A DNA stretch of 64,000 bases, taken from positions 5,704,001 through 5,768,000 of the forward strand of contig NZ_AP022601.1 in the NCBI RefSeq assembly GCF_010726765.1. Direction: 5' to 3'. A model generated the notes under the pieces. That model did no database searches, was not told where the DNA came from, and saw only the letters and a program-made list of their open reading frames with translations. Source of the stretch: Mycobacterium gallinarum (GTDB lineage Bacteria > Actinomycetota > Actinomycetes > Mycobacteriales > Mycobacteriaceae). Shown one piece after another: positions 31,062 through 45,467 of the stretch. The stretch's first letter is position 1; every line of letters starts with the position of its first letter. The translations under genes and the position numbers were made by a program.

Positions 31062-32582
31062 TCACCCCGCGAGCACAGGCTCCGTCTCGGTCTCCACTGT
31101 CGTGGAATCCAGGGCATCGTCGACATCCTGCGCGACCTGAATGTCCAGGCCGCGCAACGGTGCCGGCGGTGTCATCAGCGACACCACGACATAGGTCAGC
31201 AAGCCGGCCCCGAATGCGATGAAGGTGGGCCACCCGTCGAACGATGCGGTGATGAGGCTGTTCGGGATGTAGAGGATCGTGTTCTCGACCCCGAACATCG
31301 TCGGCGTCATGACGAACAGCACGATCCGGACAACGAACCCGACGCCGATCGCGGCGACCGCGGCCGTGGTGGTCCCTCGGCGCCACACCAACCCGAGGAT
31401 GAACGGCACGGCCAGGCACGCGAGCATCAGGTCGAAGGCGAGCGTCAGCAAGATTCCCGTCTGCTGCACGTAGACCGCGAACAGGATCGAGAACAGCGTC
31501 ATCGGCACCATTGCGATCCGCGTTGCCTTCAGTAGCGGATCCTTCTTGCCGGGCTCGTGCACGCGGCGGACACCGCCCAGATTGCGCACGCAGACATTCG
31601 AGATGGCCAGGATTGCGCCGTTCGCAGTGGACATCGACGCACCGACCAGCCCGCACAGCACGAGGACCGTCAGTCCGATTGGCGCGTACTGGTCCAGCAG
31701 GACGAAGAGCACCGGGCCGTCGAGCTCCGCGGGCATGAACGAATGTGCCGCTAGCACAACCAATCCGAACGGAACGCAGATTGCGACGGTGCCTGCCGCC
31801 GCGGTGAAACAGGCCTTGCGCGCGGCCTCGGGCGACTTCGCGGAGAACACGCGGGCCATGAAGTCGATCGCGACGATGTCACCGATGCCCAGTGCGATCA
31901 GCGTCGCCCAGTTGATGACCGCGCCCTGCGCGGGGTCGGACAATTGGCCGAGCGCCAAAGGTCCCGTGCCCTCGGCGATATCGAGACCGTGCGTCGTGGT
32001 CATCCACACGAGCAGCCCGATCGCGCCGATCAGGATCAGCGACATCTGGATGATCGCCGTGTAGGCGTCGGCGATCAGGCCGCCAGTTCCGGTGTAGGCC
32101 ACCGCGATTGCCGCGATCAGGACCACACCCAGCCAGTAGGGCATGCCGAGGAAGTAGTTGAACAAGAACCCGCCCGCGACGAGGTTGCCGGCCACCAGCA
32201 TGCAGAACGCGACGGCCAGGAGAACCGAGGCGCCCACCTCGACCGAACGCCCGAACCGCAGCCGGTAGTAGTCGGGAAACGACGTCAGCCCCATCCGGTT
32301 CATCGGTTTGGCGAAGAAGATGCCGGTGATCGTCAGACACAGCGCCAGACCCAGGGGCAGCGCCGCGCCGGCCCAGAAGCCGAATTCGAAGGCGAGGTCG
32401 GTGTTGCCGAGGGTCGCGTTGGTGTCGACGGCCGCGCCCATGAGTGCGCCGCCGACGAGCCAGAAGGGCAACATCCGGCCGCCGACAAGGAAATTGGAGC
32501 TGTCGCCCTCGATACGCTTGGACACGTAGAAGCCGACGGCCACGACAACGGCGATGCTGATCGCCACGCCGAGAAGAATCAT
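31062..32582 (-). CDS. Sodium:solute symporter family transporter, guanidine-riboswitch controlled
   Basis: A 506-residue SSS-family permease with about 13 TM helices. FLVGGRMLPFWLVGGALMGAA and FELGFW-like ALPLGLALCLTITGIFFAKP at the start, and GTGGLIADAYTAIIQMSLIL in the middle (the SSS signature core) are visible. It is the only gene behind a guanidine-I riboswitch, so it is expected to be made when guanidine is present and may import guanidine or a guanidino compound. The direction of transport is not shown by sequence; most guanidine-I genes encode exporters (SMR) or carboxylases, while SSS members usually import. AGGAG precedes the ATG. Confidence 0.9.
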   Translation of the reverse strand: MILLGVAISIAVVVAVGFYVSKRIEGDSSNFLVGGRMLPFWLVGGALMGAAVDTNATLGNTDLAFEFGFWAGAALPLGLALCLTITGIFFAKPMNRMGLTSFPDYYRLRFGRSVEVGASVLLAVAFCMLVAGNLVAGGFLFNYFLGMPYWLGVVLIAAIAVAYTGTGGLIADAYTAIIQMSLILIGAIGLLVWMTTTHGLDIAEGTGPLALGQLSDPAQGAVINWATLIALGIGDIVAIDFMARVFSAKSPEAARKACFTAAAGTVAICVPFGLVVLAAHSFMPAELDGPVLFVLLDQYAPIGLTVLVLCGLVGASMSTANGAILAISNVCVRNLGGVRRVHEPGKKDPLLKATRIAMVPMTLFSILFAVYVQQTGILLTLAFDLMLACLAVPFILGLVWRRGTTTAAVAAIGVGFVVRIVLFVMTPTMFGVENTILYIPNSLITASFDGWPTFIAFGAGLLTYVVVSLMTPPAPLRGLDIQVAQDVDDALDSTTVETETEPVLAG

Positions 32583-32608
32583 CTGGAGTCTCCTGTATGA
32601 AGCTGGAG

Positions 32609-32706
32609 TCTCCCGGGCTTTTGTCCCGCCGTGGAACGGTCATGCGTCGGTGCTGGCCGCCTGCGTCTCTCGGACCAGGCCCGGCGTGCCGGCGGAACCC
32701 TAGACG
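32609..32706 (-). ncRNA. Guanidine-I (ykkC) riboswitch
   Basis: On the - strand the three invariant blocks appear in order: CTAGGGTTCCG (32703-32693), GGTCCGAGAGACG (32676-32664) and GGCGGGACAAAAGCCCGGGA (32630-32611), which runs on into GA. These are the ykkC aptamer core that binds guanidinium. It ends 26 bases before the symporter ATG. The tail GGAGACTCCAG is repeated around the Shine-Dalgarno, so control of translation is plausible. Confidence 0.93.
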
Positions 32707-32856
32707 CGCCCCACAACTTTCTGTGAGTCCACGTCAGGAAAAGCCCGGTTGATTACGTGTCGTCGCGTCCGGTGTTAACGATGCGTTTCATTCAGCGCTG
32801 GACACGGATTCACAGACGTGCCAACAATGGCGTCAGGCGCTGCGAGATCCGGCGCC

Positions 32857-32898
32857 CCGGACGAGGTGCGTCGTACCCGGTCAGCGACAAGACGGCGC
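32857..32898 (+). ncRNA. Guanidine-III riboswitch
   Basis: The 42 bases read CCGGACGAGGTGCGTCGTAC, then CCGGTCAGCGACAAGACGGC and GC. CCGG (32857-32860) can pair with CCGG (32877-32880), and GCGTCGT (32868-32874) with ACGGCGC (32892-32898) with one G-U wobble, giving the family's compact pseudoknot. The wording is nearly that of the crystallised Thermobifida aptamer. GAGGAG of the ribosome site (32901-32906) follows at once, so ligand binding should expose or mask it. It lies 14 bases before the ureohydrolase start. Confidence 0.9.
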
Positions 32899-32912
32899 GT
32901 GAGGAGAATCTC

Positions 32913-34079
32913 GTGTCCGATTCGTCTGGCTACCCCGACCGTCCGGATCCGTCGCTGCCCAACGCCGAAGGTGCGTGGGCGCAGCAAGTCGAGGCAAATC
33001 TCGGCGATCGCCGGCTTCGCGAGGAGATCGATCGCGGTCTGAGCTACGGCCTGGAGGCCGCCCCGACCATCAACGACCGAACCATCTCGACGTTCGTCCG
33101 CGGTGAGAAACCGCACTTCGCGGGTGAGCGCGGCACATTCCTGAAGTGCCCGTTCATCGAGGATGTCAACGAGGTCGACGACGCCGAGGTGGCGATCTTC
33201 GGTGTGCCACTCGATGCCGGTGCGACCTATCGGCCTGGCACCCGGTTCGGTCCGCAGGGAATTCGTCGTTCCACGAACCTGTTCGGCACGTACAACTACG
33301 AGTCCGGGGTCGACCTGCGCGAGCAGCTGAACATGGTCGACATCGGCGACGTGTTCACGATCCCGGGCAATCTGGAGAAGTCTTTCGACCAGATCAGTCA
33401 GGCGATGGCACATGTGGCGCAGAAGGGCGTCATGCCGATCGTGCTGGGTGGCGACCACTCGATCGGCTTTCCGACAGTTCGCGGGCTGGCGCCCTACATG
33501 GACGGCAACATCGGCATCATCCACTTCGACCGCCATGTCGACACCCAGGAGACGGACCTCGACGAGCGGATGCACACCACCCCCTGGTTCCACGCGACCA
33601 ACATCAAGAACGCGCCCGCGACCAACCTCGTCCAGATCGGCATCGGCGGCTGGCAGAGCCCACGCGAGGGCGTGAAGGTCGGCCGCGAACGCCAGTCGAC
33701 GGTCATCACCGTTGGCGACGTGGAACGTGTCGGCGTCGAGAAAATCGCTGAGATGGCCCTCGAAATCGCATGGAAGGGCGCCAAAGCGGTCTATCTGTCG
33801 TTCGACATCGATGTGATCGACGCCGGTTTCGTGCCGGGCACCGGCTGGCCCGAGCCGGGTGGGCTGCTGCCGCGCGAAGCGCTGAACCTGGTCAAGATGG
33901 TGTCCGAGCCCGGGTTGGCCGGTATCGAAGTCGTGGAGTGCTCGCCGCCCTATGACTGGGCGGAGCAGACCGCGCTGATGAGCTCACGGGTGATACTCGA
34001 CAGCCTCGCCGCGCAGGTCCGATCGGGAAAGCTTGGCAAGAAGTCCGCGGCGCTGCCCCGACCGGCGTGGGGGCCGTGA
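32913..34079 (+). CDS. gdmH: Ureohydrolase, probable guanidine hydrolase (agmatinase family)
   Basis: A 388-residue arginase-fold enzyme. All six metal ligands are present: His182 (VLGGDHS), Asp206/His208/Asp210 (HFDRHVDT) and Asp298/Asp300 (SFDIDVIDAG). The usual DAHxD motif reads DRHVD, and there is an N-terminal extension of about 90 residues before the first core strand. Both features, and the length near 390, are as remembered for the Ni-dependent guanidine hydrolase GdmH (Synechocystis Sll1077) and not for agmatinases (about 310 residues). The direct guanidine-III riboswitch supports this strongly. The expected reaction is guanidine + water to urea + ammonia. The GTG at 32913 follows GAGGAG; an in-frame extension upstream runs through the riboswitch and is rejected. 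No Ni-delivery gene is in the window. Confidence 0.85.
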   Translation: MSDSSGYPDRPDPSLPNAEGAWAQQVEANLGDRRLREEIDRGLSYGLEAAPTINDRTISTFVRGEKPHFAGERGTFLKCPFIEDVNEVDDAEVAIFGVPLDAGATYRPGTRFGPQGIRRSTNLFGTYNYESGVDLREQLNMVDIGDVFTIPGNLEKSFDQISQAMAHVAQKGVMPIVLGGDHSIGFPTVRGLAPYMDGNIGIIHFDRHVDTQETDLDERMHTTPWFHATNIKNAPATNLVQIGIGGWQSPREGVKVGRERQSTVITVGDVERVGVEKIAEMALEIAWKGAKAVYLSFDIDVIDAGFVPGTGWPEPGGLLPREALNLVKMVSEPGLAGIEVVECSPPYDWAEQTALMSSRVILDSLAAQVRSGKLGKKSAALPRPAWGP

Positions 34080-37264: not shown

Positions 37265-38644
37265 TCAGAGAAGCCGACCCGCTTCGTCAAGGACGCCGCG
37301 AAGGATCTGGTAGATCGCGTCGAACTCCTTCTGGCCGCTGATCAGCGGCGGCGCCAACTGCACGACTGGGTCGCCGCGGTCATCGGCACGGCAGTACAGG
37401 CCCGCCTCGAAGATCGCGGGGGTGAGAAAACCACGGAGTAACCGCTCAGATTCCTCGTCGTTGAAGGTCTCCTTGGTGGCCTTGTCCTTCACCAACTCGA
37501 TGCCGTAGAAGAAGCCCTCGCCCCGGACGTCGCCGACGATCGGGAGGTCATAGAGCTGCTCGAGCGTCGCGCGGAATGCCGGTGCCATCTCCTTGACGTG
37601 ATCGTTGAGACCCTCGCGCTCGAAGATGTCGAGGTTGGCCAGCGCCACCGCCGACGACACCGGATGCCCGCCGAAGGTGTAACCGTGCGCGAACGTCGTC
37701 TTGCCGTCATTGAACGGTTCGAACAGCCGGTCGGAGGCGATCATCGCGCCGATCGGCGAGTAACCCGACGTCAAACCCTTTGCGCAGGTGATGATGTCGG
37801 GCACGTAGCCGAAGTCGTCGCAGGCGAACATCGAGCCGATCCGGCCGTAGGCGCAGATTACCTCGTCGGACACCAACAGCACGTCGTACTCGTCGCAGAT
37901 CTCGCGAACGCGCTCGAAATACCCTGGCGGCGGCGGGAAGCAGCCGCCGGCGTTCTGCACGGGTTCCAGGAACACCGCGCAGACGGTGTCGGGGCCCTCG
38001 AACTCGATCGCCTCGGCGATGCGGTCCGCGCAGTACCGACCGAACGCCTTCGCGTCATGCTCGAAGAGCGCGGGTGCCCGGTAGAAGTTGGTGTTGGGCG
38101 CGCGGAAACCGCCCGGTGTCAGCGGTTCGAACTGCTCCTTGAACGCCGGCAGGCCGGTGATCGCCAGGGCGCCCTGCGGGGTGCCGTGGTAGGCGATCGC
38201 ACGCGAAATCACCTTGTGCTTACCGGGTTTGCCGGTCAGCTTGAAGTAGTTCTTGGCCAGCTTCCACGCCGACTCCACGGCTTCACCACCGCCGGTGGTG
38301 AAGAACACGCGGTTGAGATCGCCCGGTGCGTACCCTGCGAGGCGCTCGGATAGCTCGATGGCCGACGGCGTGGCGTAGGACCACAGCGGGAAGAACGCCA
38401 GCGTCTCGGCCTGCTTGGCCGCCGCCTCGGCGAGCTCCTTGCGGCCGTGGCCGACCTGGACCACGAAAAGCCCTGACAGGCCGTCGATGTAGCTCTTGCC
38501 CTTGCTGTCCCAGATGGTGACGCCTTCGCCGCGAGTGATGATCGGCGGCGTGATGCCGGCGCCGTGGCGAGCGAAGTGGCCCCAGAGGTGACGATCGGCG
38601 GTGGCGCCCAGCTCGGCGGAGAGATCGATATCGGTAGCAGTCAT
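37265..38644 (-). CDS. Class III PLP-dependent aminotransferase (Rv3329-like)
   Basis: A 459-residue omega-type aminotransferase. GVTIWDSKGKSYIDGLSGLF opens the domain, VFFTTGGGEAVESAWKLAKN is the PLP phosphate site, LLVSDEVICAYGRIG holds the PLP Asp, and CAKGLTSGYSPIGAMI carries the Schiff-base Lys (AKGLTSGY). It transfers an amino group from an omega-amine such as putrescine or GABA, usually to pyruvate or 2-oxoglutarate. The ATG overlaps the Lrp stop (ATGA), so regulator and enzyme form one operon, divergent from an aldehyde dehydrogenase. Together they look like an amine-to-acid pathway. Confidence 0.9.
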   Translation of the reverse strand: MTATDIDLSAELGATADRHLWGHFARHGAGITPPIITRGEGVTIWDSKGKSYIDGLSGLFVVQVGHGRKELAEAAAKQAETLAFFPLWSYATPSAIELSERLAGYAPGDLNRVFFTTGGGEAVESAWKLAKNYFKLTGKPGKHKVISRAIAYHGTPQGALAITGLPAFKEQFEPLTPGGFRAPNTNFYRAPALFEHDAKAFGRYCADRIAEAIEFEGPDTVCAVFLEPVQNAGGCFPPPPGYFERVREICDEYDVLLVSDEVICAYGRIGSMFACDDFGYVPDIITCAKGLTSGYSPIGAMIASDRLFEPFNDGKTTFAHGYTFGGHPVSSAVALANLDIFEREGLNDHVKEMAPAFRATLEQLYDLPIVGDVRGEGFFYGIELVKDKATKETFNDEESERLLRGFLTPAIFEAGLYCRADDRGDPVVQLAPPLISGQKEFDAIYQILRGVLDEAGRLL

Positions 38645-39150
38645 CTTGTACCCCAATTATATTGCTGTTTAACGAGTTTCAGGTAAACAAGTGTCTCGGT
38701 TGATATCACTCCCGGCAGTGCGCGGATCTGGGTGTTGAGGAGGTCGAGAAGGTCGTCGTCGTCGGTACAGACGACTTCGACGATGGCGTCGAACGAACCC
38801 GCCGTCAGGACCACGTAGTCGACGGATTCGATGGTGGCCAGCTTCTCGGCCACTTTGGTGGTGTCCCCGGTGCACTTGATGCCGATCATGGCCTGACGCG
38901 CGAAGCCCAGTTGCATCGGATCGGTCACCGCGACGATCTGCATGACACCCGCGTCGACCATGCGCTGCACCCGCTGCCGGACCGCGGCCTCGGAGAGGCC
39001 GACTGCCTTGCCGATGCCGGCATAGGAACGTCGGCCGTCCTGCTGCAGCTTCTCGATGATCTGTTTCGACAAGTCGTCGAGTTGGAACGCCGCGCCAGGT
39101 CTTGACTGGTTGACGCGGAACGACACGGGTCCAACGCCCGGGTTAGCCAT
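38641..39150 (-). CDS. Lrp/AsnC-family transcriptional regulator
   Basis: A 169-residue Lrp-type regulator. The winged HTH is DLSKQIIEKLQQDGRRSYAG followed by IGKAVGLSEAAVRQRVQRMV; the C-terminal RAM/ligand domain contains TKVAEKLATIESVDYVVLTA and VEVVCTDDDDLLDLLN. It is the first gene of an operon with the aminotransferase and divergent from the aldehyde dehydrogenase, so it probably senses an amino acid or amine and controls both. The start at 39150 avoids an upstream extension that has no ribosome site. Confidence 0.9.
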   Translation of the reverse strand: MANPGVGPVSFRVNQSRPGAAFQLDDLSKQIIEKLQQDGRRSYAGIGKAVGLSEAAVRQRVQRMVDAGVMQIVAVTDPMQLGFARQAMIGIKCTGDTTKVAEKLATIESVDYVVLTAGSFDAIVEVVCTDDDDLLDLLNTQIRALPGVISTETLVYLKLVKQQYNWGTR

Positions 39151-39260
39151 GCATGAGATTGTGCACGGAATCCGTCGTAGCAAGCAACTATGACCATGAA
39201 ATCACGCGTTTTGACGGCTTCGCGCTGCAGGAATGCGTAGCTTGGCCGGTCGGAGTCGGT

Positions 39261-39266
39261 TAGCGT
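39261..39266 (+). promoter_or_regulatory. -10 element of the aldehyde dehydrogenase gene
   Basis: TAGCGT, six bases before the ATG at 39273, with no Shine-Dalgarno: a leaderless promoter pattern. Confidence 0.45.
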
Positions 39267-39272
39267 TGAACG

Positions 39273-40778
39273 ATGACTGTGTCTTCCCCCGAGACCGTAT
39301 CGACACACGTGGCAGGCAGCTGGATCGACGGGGCGCCGGTGGTCACCGCCGGCGGCGTACATCAGGTGGTCAACCCCGCCAACGGATCGACGGTGGCCGA
39401 GATGGCGCTGGCGACTCCGGCCGACGTCGACCGCGCTGTGGCTTCAGCCCGTGCCGCGTTGCGCGGTTGGGCGACGGCTACCCCTGTCGACCGCGCCGGC
39501 GTGCTCGCCAAACTCGCCGAACTCGTCGACACCAACGCGGAGGCGATCATCGCCGAGGAAGTGAGCCAGACCGGAAAGCCGGTGCGGTTGGCCACGGAGT
39601 TCGACGTGCCGGGCAGCATCGACAACATCTCGTTCTTCTCCGGTGCGGCACGCCATCTCGAGGGCAAGGCCACCGCCGAGTACTCCGGTGATCACACGTC
39701 GAGCATCCGGCGCGAGGCGGTGGGCGTGGTTGCGACGATCACGCCGTGGAACTATCCGCTGCAGATGGCGGTGTGGAAGGTGTTGCCGGCGTTGGCCGCC
39801 GGATGCAGCGTGGTCATCAAACCCGCGGAGCTCACACCGCTGACGACGCTGACCCTGGCCCGGCTGGCGACCGAGGCAGGTCTGCCCGACGGAGCTTTCA
39901 ATGTCGTGACCGGCGCAGGCGGCGATGTCGGCACCGCCCTGGCCGGACACCCTGACGTCGACGTCGTCACGTTCACGGGCTCGACCCCGGTGGGGCGCAA
40001 AGTCATGGCGGCGGCCGCGGTGCACGGCCACCGCACGCAGTTGGAATTGGGCGGCAAGGCGCCTTTCGTGGTGTTCGACGACGCCGACCTGGACGCCGCC
40101 ATCCAGGGTGCCGTCGCCGGTGCGCTCATCAACACCGGACAGGACTGCACGGCAGCGACGCGCGCGATCGTGGCGCGAGATCTCTACGACGACTTCGTCG
40201 CCGGTGTCGCCGAGGTGATGGGCAAGGTGGTGGTCGGCGATCCGCAGGACCCCGACACCGACCTGGGTCCGTTGATCTCGATGGCGCACCGCGACAAGGT
40301 CGCGGGCATGGTCGAGCGGGCACCCGGTCAGGGGGGACGCGTGGTCACCGGCGGCGTGGCGCCCGATCTGCCGGGGTCGTTCTACCGTCCGACGCTGATC
40401 GCGGATGTCGACGAGGCCTCCGAGATCTACCGCGACGAGATCTTCGGACCGGTGCTGACGGTGCGGTCGTTCACGGACGACGACGACGCGTTGCGGCAGG
40501 CCAATGACACCGCGTTCGGTTTGGCGGCTTCGGCGTGGACACGCGATGTGTACCGCGCGCAGCGGGCATCACGTGAGATCAACGCGGGCTGTGTCTGGAT
40601 CAACGACCACATTCCGATCATCAGCGAGATGCCGCACGGCGGCGTCGGCGCGTCAGGATTCGGCAAGGACATGAGCGACTACTCGCTCGAGGAGTACCTC
40701 ACGATCAAGCACGTCATGAGCGATATCACCGGGGTGGCCGACAAGGAGTGGCACCGGACCATCTTCACGAAGCGCTAG
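39273..40778 (+). CDS. Aldehyde dehydrogenase, gamma-aminobutyraldehyde type
   Basis: A 501-residue NAD(P)-dependent aldehyde dehydrogenase. VATITPWNYPLQMAVWKVLP holds the catalytic Asn, TFTGSTPVGRKVMAAAA the NAD loop, LELGGKAPFVVFDDADLDAA the general-base Glu, and NTGQDCTAATRAIV the nucleophile Cys. GQDCTAATR is the spelling of gamma-aminobutyraldehyde dehydrogenases. With the divergent aminotransferase it would take putrescine or a similar diamine to GABA. Substrate assignment is inference from these two features. Confidence 0.9.
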   Translation: MTVSSPETVSTHVAGSWIDGAPVVTAGGVHQVVNPANGSTVAEMALATPADVDRAVASARAALRGWATATPVDRAGVLAKLAELVDTNAEAIIAEEVSQTGKPVRLATEFDVPGSIDNISFFSGAARHLEGKATAEYSGDHTSSIRREAVGVVATITPWNYPLQMAVWKVLPALAAGCSVVIKPAELTPLTTLTLARLATEAGLPDGAFNVVTGAGGDVGTALAGHPDVDVVTFTGSTPVGRKVMAAAAVHGHRTQLELGGKAPFVVFDDADLDAAIQGAVAGALINTGQDCTAATRAIVARDLYDDFVAGVAEVMGKVVVGDPQDPDTDLGPLISMAHRDKVAGMVERAPGQGGRVVTGGVAPDLPGSFYRPTLIADVDEASEIYRDEIFGPVLTVRSFTDDDDALRQANDTAFGLAASAWTRDVYRAQRASREINAGCVWINDHIPIISEMPHGGVGASGFGKDMSDYSLEEYLTIKHVMSDITGVADKEWHRTIFTKR

Positions 40779-40953: not shown

Positions 40954-43900
40954 CTAATCGGCGGTCACGGTGATGAAAACTGTTGCGGTGTCGCTCCACG
41001 CAGGGTTCACGCTGTCGGTGACCCGGTACCCGAAGGTGGTGAGCCCGGTGAAGCCGGCCTTGGGGGTGAAGGTCCATCGGTTGCCGACAACCGTGACGGC
41101 GCCTCCGAGCGGTTGGCCGAAGATCACCGGCGCGCCAAGCGGGTTGCCGGTATAGGTCACGTCGTTGGCGGTGAGCGGTGGATCAAGCTCGGTGGAGACG
41201 CCCGCAGGTACCCAGTAGAAGTCGTTCTGAGACCTGATCGGATCGGTGACGATCAGGGTGACACGGGCGGGAAGGGATACGACGGTGGGATCGACACTGT
41301 CGGCCGCGGTGTAGAGGAAGCTGTCCTCGCCGCGAAACTCCGCGTCGGGCGTGTAGGTCAGGATGCCGTTGATCTCGGTGAGAGTGCCATGGGCCGGTTG
41401 GGTGAGAACGGTGATTGCCCCCACCGGTCCGTCCGCTTCGGTTCGGTCGTTCGAGACCATCTCCTCGGTGAGCGCGATCGGTTCGTTGGTGAAGACCGTG
41501 ATGCGGTCATCGCGGGCCCGGACCGGCAGCGAGTCGACGATGGTGAGCGTGACCGTCGCCGGATTCGAGACGATGTCCGGATAACCACTATCGGCCACGA
41601 TGTAGGTGAACGAGTCGGTCCCGGTGTAGCCGTTGCCCGCCCGGTACGTCAGTTCGCCGTTCTCCTCGGTGAGGTACCCGTGGGTGGGCTCGGTGAGGAT
41701 CGTGATCCGACCGAGGCCGTTAGCCGTGGTGGTGTCGTTTGCGGTGATCGCGGGCCGCATTGGGGTGAAGGTACCGGACAGCACCGTGTAGACGTCGTTG
41801 CGTGCGACGATCGGGCTGTACGGATGAACCGTGAGCTGAACCGTAGCGGGAACGGACTTCTGCGTGGGGTCGACGCTGTCGGCCACGGTGTAGGTGAAGC
41901 TGTCGGAGCCGACGTAACCGGTGTCAGGTGTGTAGGTCAGCGCGCCGCCCGTCGCGCTGAGGGTGCCGTGGGCGGGCCCTTTGACGACCGTGACGGCGCC
42001 CAGCGGGTGACCCAGGTCGGTGGTGTCGTTCGCGGTGATGCCCGGCGTCAGCACAGTGGGTGTTTCGAACGGGATCGAGTAGGCATCGGCGTTCGCAAGG
42101 ATGGGGTTGTAGGCGATGACGTTGAGGACAACGGTGGCGGGAACGGACTTCTGCGTGGGGTCGACGCTGTCGGACACGGTGTAGGTGAAGCTGTCGGAGC
42201 CGACGTAGCCGGAATTGGGCGTGTAGGTCAGCCCATCGCCCGTCGTGCTCAGGGTGCCGTGGGCGGGACCACTGACGACGGTGACAGCGCCTAGCGGTCT
42301 GCCCAGGTCGGTGGTGTCGTTGGCGGTGATCGCCGGGGTGAGCACAGTCGGCCTGCCCAGGATCGTGTAGGCGTCGTCGGCTGCCTTCAGGGGGTTGTAC
42401 GGGACTACGGTGACGGTCACTGTGGCCACGTTGGAGACGATGTCCGGATTGAACCTGTCGGCGACGGTGTAGGTGAAGGTGTCGGTTCCGGTGAAGCCGT
42501 TCCGAGGTCGGTAGGTCAGTACACCGTCGCTCTGGAACACGAGGCCGTTGGCGGGCTCGGTGACGATCGTGATCGTGCCCAACGGACTCCCGAATCTGTT
42601 GGTGTCGTTGGCCGTGAGTGCGGGGGTGAGGTCGGTGTAGGTACCCTCGTCCACCGTGTAGGCGTCGTCGTTCGCGGTGATCGGGCCGACGACGGTGACG
42701 GTGACCGTGGCTACGTTGGAGACGATGTCGGGATTGGCGCTGTCGGCGACGGTGTAGGTGAAGGTGTCGGTTCCGGTGAAGTTGTTCCTGGGTCGATAGC
42801 TCAGCACTCCGTTGGTCTCGAACAGCAAACCGTTGGTGGGCTCGGTCACGACCTTCACGGCGCCCAGTGCGCTGCCCAACGTTGTGGTGTCGTTGGCCGT
42901 CAATGCGGGGGTGAGGTCGGTGTAGGTACCCTCGTCCACCGTGTAGGCGTCGTCGTTCGCGGTGATCGGACTGACGACGACGGTGAGGACGAACGTGTCG
43001 GTGACGCGTTGTCCCGCGGCGTCGGTGGCGGTCACCGTGATCGTTGCCGTGCCGACGTCGGCACGGGCCGGGGTGCCGGTGAAGGTACGGGTAGCGGGGT
43101 CGAAGCTCAACCAGTTGGGAAGGGTGCCCGTGGTGTAGGTCAGCGCGTCGCCATCGATGTCGGCGAAGGCGTTGGACGGGATTTGGTAGGTGAAAGCTCC
43201 TCCCTCCGTGGCGTTCTGGTCCGGAATCGGGTTGGCCACCGTCGGGTCGTCGTTCTCATCGGTGACGGTGACCGCTGCGGTTGCGGTGGCGGTTCCGCCG
43301 TTGCCGTCGCTGATGGTGTAGGTGAACGAGTCGCTGCCGCTGAAGTTCGCGTTGGGTGTGTAGGTGACTGAGCCGTCGACCAGATGCACTGACCCGTTGG
43401 CACCCTGGGTGACGGCTATGACGGTCAGGGTGTCGCCGTCGATGTCGGTGTCGCCGGCGAGCACTTCGATGGTGTTGGCGCCGGAATCCTCGGTCACGGT
43501 GGCGGTGTCACCGATTGCGTTGGGTGGGTCGTTGACTCCGGTGACGGTGACGCTCACGGTGGCCGTGGCGGTTCCGCCGTTGCCATCGCTGATGGTGTAG
43601 GTGAAGGAATCGGTGCCATGGAAGTTCGCGTTGGGTGTGTAGGTCACTGAGCCGTCGACCAGATGCGCTGACCCGTTGGCACCCTGGGTGACGGTTGTGA
43701 CGGTCAGGGCGTCGCCGTCGGGGTCGGAGTCGTCGGGCAGCACGTCGATCGGATTCGCGATGGAATCCTCGGCCACCGTGGCGGTGTTACCGACGGCGGT
43801 GGGCGGGTCGTTGGCGGGGGTCACCGTGATGGTGACGGTCACGGGGTCGCTGAATTCGGATCCGTCGAATGCCTGGTAGGTGAAGGTGTCGGTGCCGTGG

Positions 43901-45321
43901 AAGTCGCGGTTGGGGGTGTAGGTCCATGCGCCGGCGTTGGGTCCTTGGTTGATCTCGGCGAGGGTGCCGTTTCGTGGAGCGGAGGTGAGCTTGCGATCCA
44001 GTGGATCGCCTTCGGGGTCGCTGTCGTTGGTCAGGGCATCAACGATCACCGCGACGTCTTCCACGGTGGTGTAGGTGTCGGGTTCGGCCAGCGGCGGGTC
44101 GTTGACTCCGGTGACGGCGACGTTCACGGTGACTGTCTCGGTGTGCCCGCCACCGCCGAAAAAGCCTGCGAGGCCGTGGATATGCCACGGGCTCGCTGCA
44201 TCGGAGATGCGATAGGTGAAGCTGTCAGTGCCGGAGAAGTCGGCATCCGGAGTGTAGGTGATGGTGCCGTCGGAGTTGAGGACGGTGATGCCGTGGCGCG
44301 GCTGGCTCAAGGCGGTCACGGTCACGGTATCCCCGTCGGAATCGGTGTCATTGGTGAGCACCGGAATGGTCGTGGCGACGTCCTCAGACGTCGTCACGTC
44401 ATCGACGCCAGCTTTGGGGGTGCTGTTGAAGAAGGTGCGTTGGATCTGCCGCCGGACGAACTCCAGCATCGCAAACAGCAGCGGCGGCTGAGCCGGGGCG
44501 ACCGGTCCGGGCGCCAAAAACGGCGCCACCATCAAGCCCACGACCGTTGTGGCGATACTGGCCACGACGCCGGGCAGCCCCAAAACTGCATCTACCGGGC
44601 CGGAGGGCTGCGGCACCAATGGCGCGGGCAATGCCGTCGTGGTGACGAGGCCAGGCATCTCGCTGCCGGCAAAGGTTGCCATCATCCGCCCATTACCCGG
44701 TGCTCCGATGTCTTGAGCGCCCAGGGCCGAGAACACACCGATCTGTGTGAGCTCGCCATCGCCGGTTGAGCCGTTTACGTCGCCCAGGTCGGGATCGCCG
44801 GCCGAGGGGTCGACAGCTTGCAGGCTCGTTTCGGTCGTTGCGACCGAGTGGTCTTGTGCTTGATCCTGCAGGCTTTGATCCAGGCTTTGGTCCGGCGGCG
44901 AGGGCGGGATCTCGGCTGCCGGCGGCATCTCAGGTGCCGGCGGTTCGGGCGTCGTCGTGGATGGCGGGTCCGCCAACCTCGCCTCGTTGTCGGTGCCGTC
45001 GTCGGCGTTGGTGTCGGTGTATTGGCCCTGGTCGTTGATCGAGGTGTGTTGGCCGCCGGAGTTGCCCACCTGCATACCCGGGTGCGCTGCGCCGTCCTCG
45101 GTCGGATCGGGGGCGGGATCGTTGGAGTCGGTTGCAGGACTCACTTCGTCGTTCTCGGACGTCAGTGATGGCGGATCTGGAGTAACACCGGGTGGGGTCT
45201 CGGTTGTACCGGTCTCGTCCGCGCAAGCCACCGCGGCGCCGTAGCCGGTGACCACCGCGACACCGACTCCAAGTGCCACCGCCAACGCGCCAACCCGACC
45301 CACATGCTGGGCATACCCCAT
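40954..45321 (-). CDS. Large exported repeat protein with cadherin/Ig-like domains
   Basis: A 1455-residue protein. The signal peptide (VGRVGALAVALGVGVAVVTG, cleavage near ACA-DE) is followed by about 200 Pro/Asp/Gln-rich residues, a hydrophobic segment (VVASIATTVVGLMVAPFLA), and the mycobacterial linker AMLEFVRRQIQRTFFNSTP. Eleven cadherin/VCBS-like repeats of about 90 residues follow. The first four have Ca-site NDTDSDGD-type motifs and end in TGVNDPP; the last seven have TANDTT...LG signatures. One putative-Ig (He_PIG) domain (IPDQNATEGGAFTYQIPSNA) sits between the two sets. No sortase signal or C-terminal TM is seen. Probably a surface or biofilm adhesin-like protein; its role is unproven. 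The ATG at 45321 is chosen because the signal peptide starts there. Confidence 0.85.
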   Translation of the reverse strand: MGYAQHVGRVGALAVALGVGVAVVTGYGAAVACADETGTTETPPGVTPDPPSLTSENDEVSPATDSNDPAPDPTEDGAAHPGMQVGNSGGQHTSINDQGQYTDTNADDGTDNEARLADPPSTTTPEPPAPEMPPAAEIPPSPPDQSLDQSLQDQAQDHSVATTETSLQAVDPSAGDPDLGDVNGSTGDGELTQIGVFSALGAQDIGAPGNGRMMATFAGSEMPGLVTTTALPAPLVPQPSGPVDAVLGLPGVVASIATTVVGLMVAPFLAPGPVAPAQPPLLFAMLEFVRRQIQRTFFNSTPKAGVDDVTTSEDVATTIPVLTNDTDSDGDTVTVTALSQPRHGITVLNSDGTITYTPDADFSGTDSFTYRISDAASPWHIHGLAGFFGGGGHTETVTVNVAVTGVNDPPLAEPDTYTTVEDVAVIVDALTNDSDPEGDPLDRKLTSAPRNGTLAEINQGPNAGAWTYTPNRDFHGTDTFTYQAFDGSEFSDPVTVTITVTPANDPPTAVGNTATVAEDSIANPIDVLPDDSDPDGDALTVTTVTQGANGSAHLVDGSVTYTPNANFHGTDSFTYTISDGNGGTATATVSVTVTGVNDPPNAIGDTATVTEDSGANTIEVLAGDTDIDGDTLTVIAVTQGANGSVHLVDGSVTYTPNANFSGSDSFTYTISDGNGGTATATAAVTVTDENDDPTVANPIPDQNATEGGAFTYQIPSNAFADIDGDALTYTTGTLPNWLSFDPATRTFTGTPARADVGTATITVTATDAAGQRVTDTFVLTVVVSPITANDDAYTVDEGTYTDLTPALTANDTTTLGSALGAVKVVTEPTNGLLFETNGVLSYRPRNNFTGTDTFTYTVADSANPDIVSNVATVTVTVVGPITANDDAYTVDEGTYTDLTPALTANDTNRFGSPLGTITIVTEPANGLVFQSDGVLTYRPRNGFTGTDTFTYTVADRFNPDIVSNVATVTVTVVPYNPLKAADDAYTILGRPTVLTPAITANDTTDLGRPLGAVTVVSGPAHGTLSTTGDGLTYTPNSGYVGSDSFTYTVSDSVDPTQKSVPATVVLNVIAYNPILANADAYSIPFETPTVLTPGITANDTTDLGHPLGAVTVVKGPAHGTLSATGGALTYTPDTGYVGSDSFTYTVADSVDPTQKSVPATVQLTVHPYSPIVARNDVYTVLSGTFTPMRPAITANDTTTANGLGRITILTEPTHGYLTEENGELTYRAGNGYTGTDSFTYIVADSGYPDIVSNPATVTLTIVDSLPVRARDDRITVFTNEPIALTEEMVSNDRTEADGPVGAITVLTQPAHGTLTEINGILTYTPDAEFRGEDSFLYTAADSVDPTVVSLPARVTLIVTDPIRSQNDFYWVPAGVSTELDPPLTANDVTYTGNPLGAPVIFGQPLGGAVTVVGNRWTFTPKAGFTGLTTFGYRVTDSVNPAWSDTATVFITVTAD
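42619..42969. repeat. 66-base perfect direct repeat inside the large repeat protein
   Basis: Bases 42619-42684 and 42904-42969 are identical over 66 bases and 285 bases (95 codons, one domain) apart. They encode the shared start of two neighbouring type-B domains. Identity at DNA level signals a recent duplication or ongoing exchange between repeats. Confidence 0.85.
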
Positions 45322-45467
45322 CGCAATCCGTCCGTCAGTGCGGACGCCTCGCGGCCCGCTGCATGATGAATCCATTCTGGCGTACGAAGTAGCAAACTTT
45401 ACGCTGAACGCGCTATTAATTTTCTGTGACGTAAAGCAGACCACTACTTACTCTGCGGCTCCGGCAG

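Follow-up and report, generated by a model that had tools for sequence, protein, structure and literature searches.

Why should two neighbouring genes that are transcribed away from each other both be preceded by guanidine riboswitches, and why should these riboswitches belong to two unrelated RNA classes? The question is raised by a locus in a 64,000-nucleotide stretch of the Mycobacterium gallinarum genome (contig NZ_AP022601.1, positions 5,704,001–5,768,000; hereafter, the window), where a guanidine-I aptamer lies before the gene for an SSS-family permease and, on the opposite strand, a guanidine-III aptamer lies before the gene for a ureohydrolase (Table 1). The locus is real, conserved, and mostly explained. 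We consider it probable that it is a guanidine-assimilation system, which consists of an SSS importer, a guanidine hydrolase (GdmH), and two guanidine ON-switches.

Both RNAs score above the curated cut-offs of their Rfam covariance models, with E-values for the whole window of 5.4e-12 (guanidine-I) and 4.8e-11 (guanidine-III). Each has one match in the whole genome (6.3 Mb, two contigs), and a 501-base scan with a threshold of E ≤ 1 gives only these two matches. An earlier note on this DNA had proposed a leftward guanidine-I aptamer and a rightward guanidine-III aptamer with a seven-pair helix, that is, guanidine riboswitches of two unrelated kinds on a pair of divergent genes, and had asked for a covariance-model search. 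The Rfam matches and the covariation bear out the two classes, their places and directions, and the helix (32868–32874 with 32892–32898).

In the guanidine-I alignment (30 rows from the genus), 91.1 per cent of the cells are paired and the covariation score exceeds that of all 500 shuffles. Eight pairs show two-sided changes, a number reached by 6 of the 500 shuffles, and the model pair of columns 7 and 70 is formed in none of the rows. The guanidine-III alignment comprises 51 loci (44 distinct rows), each with GdmH behind the aptamer, and its structure includes the CCGG/CCGG pseudoknot, which in the window fits at 32857–32860 with 32877–32880. Here 93.3 per cent of the cells are paired, the score again exceeds 500 of 500 shuffles, and seven pairs show two-sided changes (reached by 32 of 500 shuffles). 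Its membership of the class follows from the score, the ACGA core, and the pseudoknot, for which 98.3 per cent of the cells are paired, as are 99.4 per cent for the seven-pair helix. Both structures beat all their slid versions. A marker adenosine sets guanidine-I apart from the subtypes that bind guanosine tetraphosphate (ppGpp) or phosphoribosyl pyrophosphate (PRPP), which have a pyrimidine there (PMC6031431); both candidate adenosines of the CCRAGAG motif, either of which may be the marker, are A in all 30 aligned loci.

The right-hand protein is, as judged from its sequence, a guanidine hydrolase of the nickel (Ni)-dependent GdmH family. Its best matches among solved chains are the guanidinase of Nitrospira inopinata (9fek; 509 bits) and the Synechocystis enzyme (7esr/7oi1; 495 bits), compared to 165 bits for a guanidinobutyrase (3nio) and at most 127 bits for agmatinases. 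The residues named as guanidinase criteria in N. inopinata (Thr105, His222, and Trp313, with Glu344 also named; PMC11410670) are represented by T105, H221, W312, and E342 in an alignment to the solved chain, the numbering of which was assumed to run two positions higher than that of the protein. The threonine, tryptophan, and glutamate are kept in 80 of 80 proteins compared and the histidine in 79 (the window protein plus 79 of 80 named loci; L160, which has a partial protein, was left out). The earlier note had placed this ureohydrolase outside classic guanidine biology; the scores and residues correct that view, and speB-type genes behind ykkC-III RNAs were noted as early as 2010 (PMC2864571). 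The AGGAG and GTG start of the gene stand directly 3' of the guanidine-III aptamer, and the protein translated from GTG 32913 aligns with guanidinases from residue 16–19 onward. The start at GTG 32757 given by a mechanical list of open reading frames, from which the frame would cross the aptamer, was rejected because the guanidinase match begins after GTG 32913. The permease gene starts with ATG at 32582 on the minus strand.

About 3–7 kb from the hydrolase gene, positions 37265–40778 hold a putrescine- or gamma-aminobutyrate (GABA)-like cluster of an aminotransferase, an Lrp/AsnC-type regulator, and an aminobutyraldehyde-type dehydrogenase. An agmatinase or guanidinobutyrase could in principle feed the aminotransferase and the dehydrogenase, and NCBIfam agmatinase models do match the hydrolase, below their cut-offs. 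This reading is nevertheless very improbable, given the gap in bit scores between guanidinases and the other two enzymes, the guanidinase residues, and the position of the gene behind a guanidine riboswitch; an agmatinase identity was rejected on the match scores to solved chains.

Urease alpha is encoded in the same genome, and urea can therefore be used further. Among seven proteins looked up from the locus and its neighbourhood, none is a Ni-loading accessory protein. GdmH relatives (E ≤ 1e-60) occur in 11 of 72,556 plasmid records. In Mycobacterium scrofulaceum (L118:4282–12876), GdmH with its guanidine-III RNA is located between ureF and ureG/ureD (by Pfam), with PPE-like genes beside it (by eye); there, unlike in the window, some 110 bases separate the aptamer from the start codon.

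The left-hand protein belongs to the SSS family (Pfam SSF, PF00474; 84.2 bits versus a cut-off of 22.8), and its closest solved chains are choline transporters (best 75.5 bits). In a sample of 198 genomes of the genus, own genome included, guanidine-I is found directly upstream in 30 of 31 full-length orthologues (at least 69 per cent identity), including four of the five orthologues from genomes without GdmH at E ≤ 1e-60. Nine paralogues (48–49 per cent identity) have no guanidine-I by position, and a permissive scan of the four fetched found none either. All 90 orthologue rows, in which several loci appear twice, have the aspartates D172 and D235, where the four fetched paralogues have Ser and Asn; these aspartates are candidates for guanidinium binding. 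We infer from this gene context that the permease is most likely a guanidinium importer.

Several observations weigh against this assignment. One of the 31 orthologues (in genome G152) has no guanidine-I, and no SSS guanidine transporter was found in the titles, abstracts, and text passages of the literature searched. It could be argued that the permease moves another substrate, for example a different cation or the urea that GdmH releases, and that guanidine is only the signal. The many substrates of the SSS family, the orthologue in G152, and the five of 31 orthologue-bearing genomes in which no GdmH was found (E ≤ 1e-60) would all fit such a role. We nevertheless regard it as quite unlikely: guanidine-I accompanies almost every SSS orthologue; choline, the substrate of the closest solved relatives, is itself a cation; the two aspartates separate orthologues from the fetched paralogues; and a relative that shares the layout has an APC permease in this slot (L143, see below). 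Together with the GdmH matches, these links and the APC swap make import and hydrolysis, the pairing suggested in the earlier note, the best reading of the two genes.

How widespread is the arrangement? Among the 198 genomes, guanidine-III was found in 109 (119 matches) and guanidine-I in 59 (62 matches), in searches with stricter filters that lose weak matches; GdmH is present in 46 (E ≤ 1e-60) and SSS relatives in 41 (E ≤ 1e-120, one partial match in G052 dropped). The two RNAs are back to back in 24 genomes, and in all 24 pairs GdmH follows guanidine-III and an SSS orthologue follows guanidine-I. The gap between the RNAs is 117–118 bp in 14 of the pairs and ranges from 113 to 227 bp. Two further genomes (G159 and G044) have guanidine-I, SSS, and GdmH with a variant or remnant of guanidine-III. 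Overall, guanidine-III lies upstream of GdmH in 38 of the 46 GdmH genomes. The other 81 guanidine-III matches are not before GdmH, and all 11 of those fetched precede an SMR-type gene (one tested by Pfam).

We also compared 80 named GdmH loci, several of which come from genomes of the genus sample, and searched their genomes for both RNAs (four matches in L097, L102, L142, and L154, recognised from their sequence as lying on another contig, were ignored). The nearest named locus returned is that of Mycobacterium tusciae DSM 44338 (GdmH 99 per cent, SSS 98 per cent identical), in a listing that may omit very near records. An SSS gene is beside GdmH in 29 of the 80 loci, of which 26 are mycobacterial or mycobacterium-like and three are from Nonomuraea. 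Guanidine-I precedes the SSS gene in all of the 26, with guanidine-III above the cut-off in 22 and a variant or remnant in four; the three Nonomuraea loci have neither RNA.

Outside mycobacteria, the shared divergent layout rests on a single metagenome-assembled genome from Pseudonocardiales (L143), in which both RNAs exceed their cut-offs (75.6 and 65.3 bits) and the permease is of the APC family. In an Actinomycetospora locus (L149), guanidine-III and GdmH are convergent with an APC permease that carries guanidine-I, with both RNAs just below the cut-offs (34.1 and 62.1 bits). Another locus, L150, shows this RNA layout too (35.4 and 60.1 bits); its row was dropped with the gene behind guanidine-I left unassigned. 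In two Mycobacterium sphagni loci (L108 and L157), an APC permease stands in line ahead of GdmH, and neither RNA is adjacent. In the GdmH phylogeny, L143 branches next to, but not within, the mycobacterial SSS group (support 0.84, and 0.98 for the group that includes L116, a locus with neither RNA close by), and L108 falls inside the SSS group. These positions therefore indicate that permeases have been exchanged more than once. In a sample of 396 genomes of the phylum, guanidine-I occurs in 21, three of them of the genus. A scan of 19 of the 22 guanidine-I loci at E ≤ 0.01, which could miss variants, revealed no guanidine-III up to approximately 1.5 kb away; the loci outside the scan are the window's own, G011, and one second match.

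How might the two RNAs act on their genes? In the SSS leaders, the aptamer end CCCGGGAG is followed by a pyrimidine-rich CTCC, then, after approximately 10–13 bases, by the Shine–Dalgarno GGAG and a second CTCC, and the two GGAG–CTCC copies are able to pair with each other. In the window, the aptamer tail GGGAG (32614–32610) can pair with CTCC (32588–32585), and CTCC (32608–32605) can pair with the Shine–Dalgarno GGAG (32593–32590). The predicted pairing probabilities are 0.80 for the tail and 0.99 for CTCC with the Shine–Dalgarno sequence in this leader, and average 0.65 and 0.74 in 24 of 26 loci (two, G184 and G159, have no start in the stretch taken and were left out). An intrinsic terminator was rejected as the expression platform, as none was found. 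By our own mapping, the tail CCCGGGAG is a strand of the ligand-binding S-turn, which in the guanidine pocket is located in P3 (PMC6031431), and guanidine binding and hiding of the start would therefore exclude each other. An anti-Shine–Dalgarno hairpin built on the guanidine-I tail is the probable platform according to these folding predictions. Three results speak against it, however: the pairing probability is below 0.4 in 5 of the 24 loci (G144, G123, G178, G079, and G044); keeping the tail out raises the mean predicted openness of the Shine–Dalgarno sequence only from 0.09 to 0.22; and the fold of the window's own leader is unremarkable (z = −1.43), with 21 of 200 shuffles folding as well. 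By eye, a further GGAG–CTCC copy seems to lie between aptamer and start in four leaders (L036, L050, L055, and L059; genomes G125, G184, G169, and G159).

Immediately before the guanidine-I aptamer there is an extra 5-bp hairpin, which is paired in 154 of 155 cells across 31 loci with compensatory changes (CTCAC/GTGAG, CTCAT/ATGAG, CTCGC/GCGAG, CCCAC/GTGGG, and others), a result that 0 of 5000 shuffles reach. The first arm was chosen by motif in this test; of 30 loci searched independently of the motif, 23 gave that arm again, five a different arm, and two none. If the hairpin belongs to the leader, the SSS message should start upstream of 32727; possibly, the inverted repeat is a DNA palindrome instead.

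In the GdmH leader, the last guanidine-III helix ends three bases before the Shine–Dalgarno sequence. Guanidine binding to this class frees the Shine–Dalgarno sequence and shields the message from RNase E, according to published passages (PMC12186494). Folded without pseudoknots, the leader is no better than its shuffles (z = −0.19), which also counts against a switch of the kind drawn here, and we therefore offer no switching model beyond the published one.

Five SSS/GdmH loci have no guanidine-III match in Rfam, and a plain loss was rejected for four of them, which have an insertion variant before GdmH (L067:1409–1489, L103:2228–2307, L107:3195–3275, and L106:5894–5974); in the fifth (L160, genome G044), the RNA has no match and looks decayed. 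The variant keeps the ACGA core, the CCGG pair, and most of GACAAGACGGCGC (with one substitution in L103 and one inserted base in L106), and has the CGTACCCGG segment swapped for a longer stretch. Its Rfam scores are 18.9–22.7 bits against the cut-off of 36 (E = 0.9–8.5), and the calls are based on where the RNAs lie and on their sequence instead of on the score. A sequence model of the five loci revealed no further variant among the 80 named loci, the weaker matches being the normal form.

The spacer between the two aptamers would hold both promoters. TGGACA-18-AACAAT is the sole promoter-like match in 32560–32960 (shuffle mean 0.0) and would place the start of hydrolase transcription near 32835. 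A candidate GlnR box, which has one mismatch to the Mycobacterium smegmatis consensus Gn2AC-n6-GnAACA (PMC3662644) and is of the AC-n9-AC type, a short and common motif, ends 9 bp upstream of it. At up to one mismatch the consensus is matched in 21 of 26 spacers, 19 of them at the same place (own included), compared to 7 per cent of mononucleotide shuffles, and L143 retains GAAAC-n6-TTAAC, with a total of two mismatches. Against control by GlnR stand the frequency of the motif at one mismatch (23 in the window, where 39.8 are expected), the relatedness of the 26 spacers, which are not independent, and Mycobacterium chubuense, which has lost SSS and guanidine-I and has no GlnR-type box at that place. 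For the first two of these reasons, the box is only a candidate. Between the candidate box and the GdmH promoter, some spacers (L059/L067 and L038) have inserted copies of a short GC-rich repeat (GCGACCCGGGAA with flanks), of which G159 has three and G082 has one.

In the mechanism that we propose, the SSS permease would bring guanidinium into the cell with a driving cation, the guanidinase would split guanidine into urea and ammonia, and the urease encoded elsewhere in the genome would free the remaining nitrogen. Guanidine probably serves as a nitrogen source via the locus. Both messages would be switched ON by guanidine via unrelated RNAs. In the guanidine-free SSS leader, the tail CCCGGGAG and CTCC would fold onto the Shine–Dalgarno sequence and the bases behind it; with guanidine bound, the tail would stay in the aptamer and the start would open. 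In the GdmH leader, guanidine would stabilize the guanidine-III pseudoknot beside the Shine–Dalgarno sequence. The GlnR-type box between the promoters may add nitrogen shortage as a second condition for both genes. The full gate, in which the GlnR box licenses both genes, the two RNAs license each gene separately, and the permease is the first SSS-type guanidinium symporter in an APC slot, is a tentative proposal, for which our doubt slightly outweighs our confidence.

Would such a locus supply nitrogen or remove a toxic compound? Elsewhere in the genus guanidine-III controls SMR exporters, and guanidine riboswitches often control export (PMC12186494), as would be expected if the pair were for detoxification. 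A permease from an importer family, the urease alpha gene, the GdmH gene inside a urease cluster in M. scrofulaceum, and a candidate GlnR box that points to nitrogen shortage all make detoxification an improbable function, and we retain nitrogen supply as the probable one.

As for the question of why two RNA classes are used, guanidine-I accompanies permease genes with or without GdmH, and guanidine-III accompanies GdmH with or without a permease and also SMR genes. Modular assembly is the simplest account of the pair: guanidine-I would have come with the permease gene and guanidine-III with the hydrolase gene, which suggests that each gene kept the riboswitch with which it travels. Alternatively, the two classes may have been selected for different thresholds or timing, for instance, to turn on the hydrolase before the importer; the earlier note had raised this idea as separate thresholds or modes for uptake and hydrolysis. 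The constant assignment of guanidine-I to SSS and guanidine-III to GdmH in 24 of 24 pairs of the genus, seen again in L143 and L149, where the permease is of the APC family, agrees with such selection; modular inheritance, however, yields the same constancy. Moreover, guanidine-I is found with SSS in four genomes where GdmH was not found, and guanidine-III is found with GdmH without SSS and, in each of the 11 lone loci inspected from a total of 81, with SMR exporters. We therefore judge selection for thresholds or timing unlikely and favour modular assembly.

Parts of this arrangement have known counterparts. In the comammox bacterium N. inopinata, guanidine-I precedes an APC permease and a guanidinase, and ATP-independent import was proposed (PMC11410670). 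That system resembles the present one in having guanidine-I before the permease and a guanidinase of the same family, but, as described there, a single riboswitch stands ahead of permease and guanidinase in line, whereas here the permease is SSS, the genes are divergent, and the guanidinase has a riboswitch of a second class. Enterobacterial gene clusters (in Raoultella, Erwinia, and Klebsiella) combine guanidine-I and guanidine-II (PMC12186494), and there, too, the genes for import and for degradation in a single cluster are served by two riboswitch classes. According to the passages on them, however, those clusters use the carboxylase pathway and an ABC importer, and one riboswitch-headed set is immediately downstream of the other, in contrast to the hydrolase pathway, divergent genes, and classes I and III seen here. 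The Synechocystis GdmH operon encodes a hydrolase of the same family (495 bits to 7oi1/7esr) but, by these accounts, has its own Ni-loading accessory genes and an ABC importer (PMC12186494, PMC11410670).

The guanidine-III/GdmH half corresponds to the known association of ykkC-III, which is described before emrE and speB genes (PMC2864571), with speB; here, the divergent partner carries guanidine-I. Guanidine-III beside SMR genes in Actinobacteria has also been published (PMC8492726). Two riboswitches in one intergenic region recall tandem riboswitches, a reading that we rejected, as tandem riboswitches share one 5' leader and these two are on different mRNAs from opposite strands. According to passages of a 2022 review, none of the four guanidine classes is reported in tandem (PMC9481103), and T-box plus guanidine riboswitches are described in Bacillota (PMC12452182). 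The divergent arrangement is not reported in the titles, abstracts, and passages searched, with an earlier mention in the original guanidine-I and guanidine-III papers or the 2021 guanidine-utilisation paper being possible.

Besides guanidine-I and guanidine-III, the only Rfam match above its cut-off in the window is a SAM-IV riboswitch (21421–21299, minus strand; 105.9 bits versus a cut-off of 38). Positions 40954–45444 of the minus strand hold a 1496-aa open frame that looks repetitive by eye.

Table 1. Features of the divergent guanidine locus of M. gallinarum, in window coordinates.
Feature	Position	Strand	Basis
SSS-family permease, 506 aa, predicted guanidinium importer	31062–32582	−	Pfam SSF, guanidine-I link
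Intergenic gap between permease and hydrolase genes	32583–32912	divergent	
Probable translational expression platform of guanidine-I	32585–32614	−	pairing probabilities
Guanidine-I riboswitch aptamer (RF00442)	32608–32714	−	77.2 bits, cut-off 63
Extra 5-bp hairpin before guanidine-I aptamer, CTCAC 32727–32723 / GTGGG 32714–32710	32710–32727	−	
Spacer with both promoters, 118 bp	32715–32832		gap size across back-to-back pairs
Third in-phase half-site of candidate GlnR box, GTAAT	32756–32752	−	
Candidate GlnR box, GAAAC-n6-TTAACA	32773–32789	−	one mismatch to consensus
Promoter-like site of hydrolase gene, TGGACA-18-AACAAT	32799–32828	+	
Guanidine-III riboswitch aptamer (RF01763), core with pseudoknot 32857–32898	32833–32901	+	64.6 bits, cut-off 36
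Shine–Dalgarno AGGAG (32902–32906) and GTG start (32913)	32902–32915	+	read from sequence
Guanidine hydrolase (GdmH/guanidinase), 388 aa	32913–34079	+	solved-chain matches, residues

The locus is probably of specialist interest for its divergent pairing of two riboswitch classes, for an SSS protein that, as the probable importer, occupies the place of an APC permease, and for its candidate nitrogen control. If our reading is true, guanidine import would gain a further transporter superfamily, and guanidine assimilation would extend to environmental mycobacteria. At the locus, two unrelated RNA sensors for one ligand could also be compared directly, as they occur naturally in the same cell and the same intergenic region, and the swaps found among its relatives (APC for SSS, normal for insertion-variant guanidine-III, and SMR for GdmH) would let one ask how genes trade riboswitches.

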